The translations under genes and the position numbers were made by a program. Source: Pseudomonadales bacterium (GTDB lineage Bacteria > Pseudomonadota > Gammaproteobacteria > Pseudomonadales > Azotimanducaceae). From it: a stretch of 64,000 bases of DNA. Below are positions 35,862-39,473 of this stretch, in pieces. The DNA lies in assembly GCA_012103505.1 (NCBI GenBank), contig WLWP01000001.1, positions 1,736,001 to 1,800,000 of the forward strand. Direction: 5' to 3'. Under the pieces are notes generated by a model. The model did not search any database. It was not told where the DNA came from and saw only the letters and a list, made by a program, of their open reading frames with translations. Each line of letters opens with the position of its first letter. Position 1 is the stretch's first letter.

Positions 35862-36887
35862 TCATGCAACCGCCCTCGCGATCTCACCCCATCTGCCTAA
35901 ATTCGCGGGATTCCGACCCAGATCTTCAGCGGTGAGATACGTGACGATCCGGCTGGCAACCCCTGCATAGCGGCCTTTCAAGGCATCGGCCATATCATCC
36001 CAACTGGCAACAACGGCAAAATGCTGCAAAATATCGTCGCTAATCAAATCTGCCATCCCGCCCATATCGCCAGCTTTCATCTTGGCGCCGAGCTCTTGAG
36101 TGAGACCTGTAAAACCCAGATCGTCGAACTGAAAAGCGTAATTAGGCGTAGAACCATAGAAGGACACTTGAGTACGAGCACGTTTGAGCATATTTGCTTG
36201 CTCCTCTGGCGAGTCTCCAGCAACCGCAAATACGGGGATTATCAGATCGATATCGCTGGCTGAGCGCCCTGCCTTGCTCGCGCCTTCTGCCACAGCAGGT
36301 TCCAGACGATTCTTTATATAAGGCATCGAATGCATCGGATGAACATGAATACCATCGCAGAGTTCTCCAGCAAGTCGACACATATGCGGACCCACAGCCG
36401 AAATATCAATCTTGATGTCCTCATACTCGTGCCTTGCTGGCGACCAAGCTGCCGGTAGGTACGAAAGGTTGTAGTAAGGCCCTTCATGGCTGAGCTTTTC
36501 TTCACCGCGGAACGCCCGCACACATGCGTTGAATGCCCCGACATAATCCCGCATCTGTGGTGCTGGCTTGTCGAACGTTGCACTGTAACGACGAACTACG
36601 TGGCCTTTAACCTGACTGCCAAGTCCCAATCGAAAACGCCCTCCTGTGTTGGCGGCCAACTCCCACGCAAGCTGCGCCGAGATCATCGGGCTACGCGGAA
36701 ACGCAACTGCGATGCCCGTACTAAATTCGAGCGTCGATGTTGCCATCGCGGCAGCGGCGATGGACATCCAAGGGGTCTGACCTGTTTCGGTAAAAAGCAT
36801 CCCACCAAAACCCTGGTCTTCAAGGTTCTTTGCGAGCGCGCCACTCTTAGCCCACTCCAAACCGCCCACCATCAAATCAAATTTCAT
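35862..36887 (-). CDS. Luciferase-like (LLM class) F420/FMN-dependent oxidoreductase, TIGR03617-like
   Basis: The 341-residue protein belongs to the luciferase-like monooxygenase superfamily. It begins KFDLMVGGLEWA, and characteristic segments are FSTGIAVAFPRSP, RFRLGLGSQVKGHV and SAVGPHMCRLAGELCDG. This wording matches the group often annotated TIGR03617 and found in Actinobacteria and marine Proteobacteria. Such enzymes use FMN or F420 and act on unknown substrates. It is the last gene of the minus-strand operon containing the selenoprotein candidate, 41 bases after the rhodanese gene. Confidence 0.87.
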   Translation of the reverse strand: MKFDLMVGGLEWAKSGALAKNLEDQGFGGMLFTETGQTPWMSIAAAAMATSTLEFSTGIAVAFPRSPMISAQLAWELAANTGGRFRLGLGSQVKGHVVRRYSATFDKPAPQMRDYVGAFNACVRAFRGEEKLSHEGPYYNLSYLPAAWSPARHEYEDIKIDISAVGPHMCRLAGELCDGIHVHPMHSMPYIKNRLEPAVAEGASKAGRSASDIDLIIPVFAVAGDSPEEQANMLKRARTQVSFYGSTPNYAFQFDDLGFTGLTQELGAKMKAGDMGGMADLISDDILQHFAVVASWDDMADALKGRYAGVASRIVTYLTAEDLGRNPANLGRWGEIARAVA

Positions 36888-38960: not shown

Positions 38961-39473
38961 TCAAGAACCTGGCGTTGGCAATACTGTTACTGGCATCTCT
39001 TGTGGTTCCAGACCGAGTGTAATCAAGACCTTCGACATACCTAAAAAGAGGCCAACCCCCAAAGAAATCTCAACTAACTCAGCCGGGCTGAAATGGCGTT
39101 TCAGCTCACTAATCAGTGCATCGTCCGGAGGCTTAACATCAGAAATCAAGAGATCCGTGAGCTTAAGTGCTGCCGCTTCTCGGTCGTTGAAGCTTTGTTC
39201 AAATCCATCTTCGACTAGCTCGACTTTCGCTTCAGTCAGTCCCGCTGCACGAGCGGAATCAAAACGTACGTTGCGTCAGTAACCACAATCCGTCACTCGA
39301 GCATTGCGAATCCGCGTGAGTTCCTTTAGTTCAGCAGACACCTCCCCGTCTTGCCAAAACTCAGCGTAGAGATCGAAGAAACGCGCGATCACCTCAGGCG
39401 AGTGCGCCGTCACGGTACCGAAATTAGCTACCTCCCCCGGGATCGCGCTATCAATTCTGGGCTGCGTAGACAC
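38961..39473 (-). CDS. AhpD/carboxymuconolactone-decarboxylase-like candidate selenoprotein with in-frame TGA (CxxU)
   Basis: Read through a TGA at 39276-39278, this is one 170-residue protein of the AhpD/CMD family. Before the TGA it reads LKELTRIRNARVTDCGY and after it RNVRFDSARAAGLTEAKV, the normal family continuation, with no other stop up to 38963. The family motif is CxxC; here the second cysteine is replaced by UGA at residue 66, giving CGYU. AhpD-like CxxU selenoproteins are known from marine metagenomes. A hairpin fitting the bacterial SECIS pattern follows (39240-39258). The GTG start abuts the upstream CMD-like gene, and the gamma-glutamyltransferase starts one base after the stop. 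The likely role is thiol/selenol redox chemistry. A nonsense mutation is the alternative. Confidence 0.82.
39240..39258 (-). promoter_or_regulatory. Candidate bacterial SECIS hairpin
   Basis: On the mRNA, CCGCU (39256-39252) pairs with AGCGG (39246-39242) around the five-base loop CGUGC; a U.G and a U-A pair extend it to seven pairs. The loop starts 24 bases after the UGA and has G as its second base. Bacterial SECIS elements are described as having a small loop with a G in the first two positions, about 16-37 bases from the UGA. The fit supports Sec insertion but a short hairpin can arise by chance. Confidence 0.65.

Follow-up and report, generated by a model that had tools for sequence, protein, structure and literature searches.

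Does a reading frame that is interrupted by a single in-frame TGA belong to a decaying gene, or is the TGA read as selenocysteine (Sec)? The question is raised by a gene of the AhpD-like/CMD family on the minus strand (39473-38961) of the window, which is the whole analysed stretch of 64,000 nucleotides (positions 1,736,001 to 1,800,000 of contig WLWP01000001.1, assembly GCA_012103505.1) from a Pseudomonadales bacterium of the Azotimanducaceae. Judged by comparison with its relatives, this gene almost certainly encodes a selenoprotein, which is by far the best reading of the split frame, and it is one of 32 distinct loci that make up a coherent Sec subfamily. Directly upstream lies a homologous gene that carries neither CxxC nor CxxU, and the two products probably form a two-part redox enzyme.

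Reading frame and conservation across the TGA

Standard gene calling cuts the gene in two at the TGA. Read through, it has a GTG start at 39473, the TGA as codon 66 at 39278-39276 and a TGA stop at 38963-38961, and gives a product of 170 residues containing C63-G64-Y65-U66-R67-N68-V69-R70-F71 (U, Sec). Cys63 (39285..39287, minus strand), the first residue of the CxxU motif, is invariant in 20 of 20 alignment rows. The Pfam CMD match (PF02627) extends across the TGA (residues 26-106; 28.5 bits, gathering cut-off 23), as expected from the original prediction, made from the letters of the window, that an AhpD/CMD frame is open on both sides of a single TGA. That prediction also located the gene correctly and left the minus strand unstated.

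Relatives were collected in two ways. In a set of 146 related genomes, the window's own included, an orthologue of at least 57% identity was present in 20, with TGA at the codon in 18 and a Cys codon in two. A pattern-based scan of a genome collection covering, by its own description, 84,980 species was run with two peptide patterns, one carrying Cys in place of Sec and the other spanning the hairpin-encoding residues, and returned 33 loci, 30 with TGA and three with Cys; because two patterns only were used, the scan is not exhaustive and the Sec:Cys ratio is no census. The 33 scanned loci, the window and a locus from outside the scan (L028; L and G numbers denote loci and genomes of the comparison) make 35 distinct loci, 32 with TGA and three with Cys. 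Cys/Sec pairs among homologues, which had been proposed as a check, were thereby found, and Cys at that codon in three relatives agrees with the claim that the TGA stands where a CxxC motif has its second cysteine.

A second internal stop was seen in none of the 33 scanned loci. By record title, 28 of these loci come from metagenome-assembled genomes (MAGs) of Gammaproteobacteria or Pseudomonadales, and the other five titles are Klebsiella pneumoniae (MAG), Pseudomonadaceae, Candidatus Azophilus lithoversatilis (placed in Candidatus Azotimanducaceae), Desertimonas flava and Acidimicrobiaceae. The Klebsiella title (L059) looks mistaken; the protein groups with gammaproteobacterial MAG sequences and has 61% identity to that of the window. 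No viral relative was found in a scan with a single protein carrying Cys at the Sec position, which detects close relatives only.

A codon-by-codon comparison with the window covered eight Sec and two Cys loci of the other 34. The uncorrected proportion of non-synonymous change was below the synonymous proportion in all ten, upstream of the TGA as well as in the 46 codons that follow it, and the downstream decay that had been named as evidence against a selenoprotein was seen in none of these ten. A pseudogene or sequencing error, with a nonsense mutation newly arisen in an ordinary CxxC protein, could be suspected since the gene is cut by a stop codon and MAGs contain errors; it was rejected, and its probability is close to nil, in view of the TGA conserved at the same codon in 32 distinct loci, the sequence conservation and low rate of non-synonymous change that continue beyond it, and the conserved hairpin and Sec machinery described below. 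The same 32 loci bear out the earlier argument that a nonsense mutation was unlikely.

Selenocysteine machinery

The window's genome is 99.13% complete with 6.61% contamination. A search for selA, selB, selC and selD, asked for by the original prediction, found all four on the window's own contig (C6, 4,647,870 bases), each over its curated cut-off: tRNA-Sec (selC) at 71.7 bits, SelB at 401.6 bits, SelA at 541 bits and SelD at 253 bits. ARAGORN independently calls the tRNA-Sec with anticodon TCA. The tRNA-Sec, SelB and SelA lie clustered at C6:913659-916969, and SelD at C6:905616-906518. Among 14 control genomes the tRNA-Sec model was over its cut-off in five, so that tRNA-Sec alone is weak evidence; SelB was over its cut-off in two, SelA in one and SelD in two.

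The genomes of 25 of the 32 Sec loci were tested for the proteins, with SelB over the cut-off in 24 and SelA in 23 (in G065 SelA is cut by a contig end). At an expectation value (E) of 1e-8, tRNA-Sec was found in 15 of 19 Sec genomes tested, and SelD was found in 17 of 19. Loss of the machinery was considered as the cause of the Cys forms and rejected, as two of the Cys genomes (G073 and G064) keep SelA, SelB, tRNA-Sec and SelD; in the third (G146) SelA, tRNA-Sec and SelD are present and the best SelB match reaches 229 bits, under the cut-off of 242.25.

As a side observation, SelD of the window's genome lies inside an open frame of 742 codons, and an open frame of more than 700 codons surrounds SelD in 20 of 24 genomes with a SelD match; this would fit the Ndh-SelD fusions described in the available text of PMC2398784.

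The hairpin after the UGA

A hairpin, CCGCU-CGUGC-AGCGG, is present as the original prediction gave it, with its loop beginning 24 bases past the UGA. It occupies 39241..39257 on the minus strand, with a stem of six base pairs and G as the second base of the loop CGUGC; a small loop with a guanosine is what characterizes the bacterial selenocysteine insertion sequence (SECIS) in the available text of PMC1088965, and both features are found here.

Taken alone, the hairpin was rejected as weak evidence, since comparable structures are common after TGAs of the window and its folding energy is unremarkable. Under a loose definition of our own, a comparable hairpin lies downstream of 226 of the window's 2292 TGAs, counted over both strands. 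Of these TGAs, 33 are flanked on both sides by 50 or more open codons, and a hairpin follows six of the 33, that of the selenoprotein included; the frames bridged by the other five have no Pfam match at E 0.01 and were taken as chance. For 48 nt from the hairpin region the folding energy gave z = 0.62, with 141 of 200 shuffles at least as stable. It is therefore the comparative evidence, not the hairpin by itself, that lifts this locus out of chance.

Conservation of the hairpin was assessed by pair counting on 31 Sec sequences with 500 shuffles. All six pairs form in 31 of 31 aligned sequences; four are invariant and two vary with compensation (C-G, U-A, G-C and one U-G in the first; C-G and U-A in the second). 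Cells with two-sided change numbered 21, against a shuffled mean of 6.7 (none of 500 as high) and at most 4 when the partners were slid by 1 to 3 columns, and the covariation score was 0.310 against 0.143 in shuffles (none of 500 as high). Each of the two variable pairs connects the third positions of two separate codons (73 with 77, 74 with 76), so that selection on the protein offers no explanation for the covariation. The loop codon for Arg75 is CGT in all 32 Sec loci, whereas CGT encodes 45 of the 306 other Arg residues of these genes. The full stem of six pairs is present in 31 of the 32 Sec loci, L028 being without the outermost pair only, and in none of the three Cys loci. Pair counting thus answered the proposed bacterial SECIS check: the hairpin is kept with compensatory changes in Sec loci and is absent from the three Cys loci.

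The same association bears on the possibility that UGA is read as another amino acid, through a recoded genome or a Trp or Cys suppressor. As such a reading would have it, the frame continues open through the UGA and the relatives that differ there have Cys; against it, the gene itself ends in TGA, the genome has SelA, SelB, SelD and a tRNA-Sec with anticodon TCA, and the hairpin goes with UGA and not with Cys. This alternative is highly improbable.

Several results weigh against the selenocysteine reading. G010, which has the Sec gene and is 96% complete in 520 contigs, is without selA, tRNA-Sec, or selB over the cut-off, and has selD. At E 1e-8, tRNA-Sec was not found in G026, G003 and G147, all of which do have SelA and SelB, and SelD was not found in G027 (69% complete) and G147. 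Two coarse measures of covariation were no higher than in shuffles, because only two of six pairs vary: the number of pairs with two-sided change was 2 against 1.8 (399 of 500) and that of further pair types 4 against 4.0 (474 of 500). Six changes of type are needed to place the first variable pair on the protein tree, three being the minimum possible; the well-supported branches force only two changes for C-G and one for U-A, so that repeated compensation is likely and not proven. As to G010, the Sec gene, the partner and selD are all in the bin, from which a contig is perhaps missing.

Structure and active site

A model of the Sec half, with Cys for Sec, had a predicted local distance difference test score (pLDDT) of 80.6, with low-confidence blocks at the CxxU loop (59) and the C-terminus. 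The closest structure was Pseudomonas aeruginosa PA0269/AhpD (2o4d; template modelling (TM) score 0.69 by query), and the debrominase Bmp8 (6ohi, 6ohj) was among the sequence and fold matches. The AhpD peroxidase site consists of Glu, CxxC and His. A Glu 12 residues before the first Cys is present in 35 of 35 loci, followed by CxxU in 32 and CxxC in three. The His that PA0269 has four residues after the second Cys is Arg in all 35, for which reason textbook AhpD chemistry is not to be assumed; the protein is accordingly called a CMD-fold redox selenoprotein that may work like AhpD, and not an AhpD.

The upstream partner gene

The selenoprotein gene is directly preceded by a gene of 130 residues (39866-39474, minus strand) whose stop codon abuts the selenoprotein GTG with zero bases between. 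This gene was missed by the original prediction, as were the fusions described below; its selenoprotein call, by contrast, is supported. The copy in the window has no Pfam match at E 1. In the partner family, a CMD match at E 0.1 was obtained for 20 of 31 members (best 2.2e-06), and hhalign pairs the partner and Sec profiles with 98.9% probability, so that by profile comparison the partner is clearly a homologue of the CMD half. CxxC occurs nowhere in any of the 31 members; in many of them a lone Cys remains where CxxU has its first residue, though not in the window copy. The AlphaFold model of the partner had a pLDDT of 87.4.

A search with the window copy (tblastn) placed the partner just upstream in 30 of 34 collected loci, and a profile search added L075 and L077, giving an adjacent upstream partner in 32 of 33 collected loci with room to tell; L067 begins at a contig end. 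In the profile search of the 146 relatives, the close form of the partner (E <= 6e-40) was present in 20 of 20 genomes with a Sec/Cys orthologue and in none of the 126 others. Five order-level CxxC relatives, one of them a fusion, also have the partner directly upstream (77 to 95 bits), and the pairing is thus not tied to the use of Sec. The partner gene opens an experimental route to the function of AhpD-like selenoproteins.

The Sec profile was also run at E 1e-25 against 369 sampled genomes of the window's class and matched two of them: that of the window itself and G169, where the protein is a Cys form and the partner gene immediately precedes it. In the order of the Acidimicrobiaceae record, taken as Acidimicrobiales, 25 of 298 genomes matched, 23 of them with a single TGA. 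The best twenty of these loci were read and comprised 18 Sec and two Cys forms. In eight of the 18 Sec loci the frame runs on without a stop (235-250 stop-free residues after U) into a second CMD-like stretch; these second halves contain no CxxC or CxxU, and in eight of eight the partner profile beats the Sec profile. Fused two-half proteins were thus collected from L043, L087-L089 and L092-L097, and the halves are fused in both orders: partner then Cys half in L043 (a single protein of 356 residues in G107) and L095 (CxxC; partner, 66 bits, before the catalytic half), and Sec half then partner in the eight loci just given. An upstream partner match was good in L086, L090 and L091 (58-77 bits); other upstream matches in that order stay below 30 bits and are of uncertain identity, and L098 has no upstream partner match.

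Eight of these 18 Sec loci can form the stem in the same place, and three (L086, L088, L090) have a bulge or mismatch there; in the remaining seven (L085, L098, L100-L104) another hairpin is found closer to the UGA. In L098 and L100-L104 this nearer hairpin is of the type UUCGC-AGGU-GCGAA (that of L085 differs), as if the SECIS had been replaced.

Proposed explanation

SelB and Sec-tRNA(Sec) would read UGA-66 as Sec owing to the hairpin 24 nt downstream, and the product would be a redox protein of the CMD/AhpD fold in which Sec66 replaces the second cysteine of CxxC. By the usual AhpD scheme Sec66 would attack a hydroperoxide or other small electrophile and Cys63 would resolve through a selenenylsulfide. 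The Sec half would act together with the upstream homologue as a two-part enzyme, in which the non-catalytic half probably completes the active-site pocket or the assembly.

Three results weigh against such a two-part enzyme, and a fourth bears on its chemistry. The fit of the partner profile to the second halves of the eight Sec-first fusions is weak (best domain 21-40 bits, compared with 15 bits or less for the Sec profile). The profile behind the co-occurrence count was built largely from partners of the same genomes, so that its positives are partly by construction; the absence from the other 126 genomes and the match in G042, whose copy is outside the profile, are not. In G042 itself the halves are unlinked, with no partner beside the gene (L047) and the partner on another contig. 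The fourth, the replacement of His by Arg, tells against taking the textbook AhpD mechanism for granted. For the first two of these reasons the explanation as a whole, selenoprotein and two-part CMD redox enzyme, is put as probable, at a lower level than its Sec part.

The Sec half could instead be an ordinary AhpD-type peroxidase by itself, with the upstream gene a co-transcribed duplicate that has its own function. The closest solved structures by sequence and fold are indeed of the PA0269/AhpD type, the pair is unlinked in G042, and the examined flanks of seven of seven other CMD paralogues (L038, L040, L041, L044, L045, L079, L080) contain no partner. Such independence is rather unlikely, given that the close-form partner is found only with the Sec/Cys gene (with the reservation about the profile given above), that the halves are fused in both orders elsewhere and that the AhpD His is replaced by Arg. 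Returning to the two-part enzyme, its widest form has about an even chance on the comparative evidence: a bacterial selenoenzyme made of a CxxU half and a dedicated non-catalytic half forming one active site or one regulated complex, present in Gammaproteobacteria and (by record names) Acidimicrobiales, with exchange of Sec and Cys and fusions in either order, as a selenium-containing counterpart of the sestrin layout.

Neighbouring genes and a second CMD-type protein

Genes for gamma-glutamyltransferase (GGT), rhodanese, a luciferase-like monooxygenase (LLM) oxidoreductase, CysD and CysNC follow in close relatives. With Bmp8, a debrominase of the CMD fold, among the sequence and fold matches, they suggest a reductive enzyme other than a peroxidase, either a Bmp8-like dehalogenase or an enzyme of sulfur or thiol-conjugate metabolism tied to GGT, rhodanese and cysD/cysNC, a possibility compatible with the other readings. 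GGT is found in five of 34 loci and rhodanese and cysD in six of 34, several loci being cut by contig ends; a non-peroxidase function is accordingly judged unlikely. Being present in few loci, GGT, rhodanese, LLM, cysD and cysNC lie outside the conserved unit and were ruled out as components of the system.

Two of these neighbours were looked at further in the window. The protein at 34295-35752 matches CysD from residue 182 of 485 and has no Pfam match before residue 212; its extra N-terminal stretch seems kept, with tblastn matches of nearly full length in relatives (L048). The LLM oxidoreductase at 35862-36887 is over the cut-off of TIGR03617, an F420-dependent family.

A second CMD-type protein of the same genome (G000:C6:2951245-2951652; L079:1614-2168) also has an in-frame TGA (CFTU), with a possible hairpin after it and no partner gene in the flanks examined. 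Paralogues with a TGA like that of L079 occur in a number of relatives.

Comparison with known systems

AhpD-like selenoproteins with CxxU are already published, and the new part seems to be the partner gene. AhpD-like 1 (COG2128) and AhpD-like 2 (pfam02627) were described from marine metagenomes (available text of PMC2398784), AhpD-like or CMD-like CxxU selenoproteins also appear in PMC1088965 and PMC13188914, and a CMD-type candidate was listed for Geobacter sulfurreducens (PMC1242214), so that the original prediction was right in naming such proteins from marine metagenomes. As far as these sources describe them, the marine proteins share with the window subfamily the CMD/AhpD family, the CxxU motif with Sec at the second cysteine, Cys homologues and a hairpin after the UGA; AhpD-like 2 was compared with it by description only. 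In the open-licence literature no paper was recognized on a split or fused Sec version of the pair.

Homology is detectable to five NCBIfam models, TIGR04169, NF053654 (YciW-related (seleno)protein), TIGR01926, NF041047 (GSU3128 family) and NF041238 (AhpD_rel_CFYUT), of which three carry '(seleno)protein' in their descriptions. The window protein reaches the cut-off of no NCBIfam model; it scores 32.5, 28.5, 24.8 and 17.2 bits with the first four, the cut-offs being 120, 310, 81.8 and 110, and for NF041238 there were matches in five of 20 members (best E 3.7e-06), the window protein not being one of the five. PA0269/AhpD (2ijc, 2o4d, 7xw1) gives the best sequence and fold matches and is alike in the Glu 12 residues before the first Cys and in having CxxC at the CxxU site; it differs in having Cys instead of Sec, and His four residues after the second Cys where the window family has Arg.

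The layout of two unequal halves is closest to that of bacterial AhpD fusion proteins in which one pseudo-domain has no Cys (Corynebacterium ureicelerivorans, Comamonas aquatica). The available text of PMC11429811 likens these proteins to eukaryotic sestrins, themselves marked by an electronegative DDYDY-type hinge in the second half. Both systems combine one catalytic and one non-catalytic AhpD-like half; as described there, the fused AhpD proteins and sestrins are single chains with Cys, whereas in the window the halves are separate genes and the catalytic half has Sec. An active/inactive AhpD pairing that is split or fused according to lineage would offer a bacterial system in which to ask why sestrins keep a non-catalytic half.
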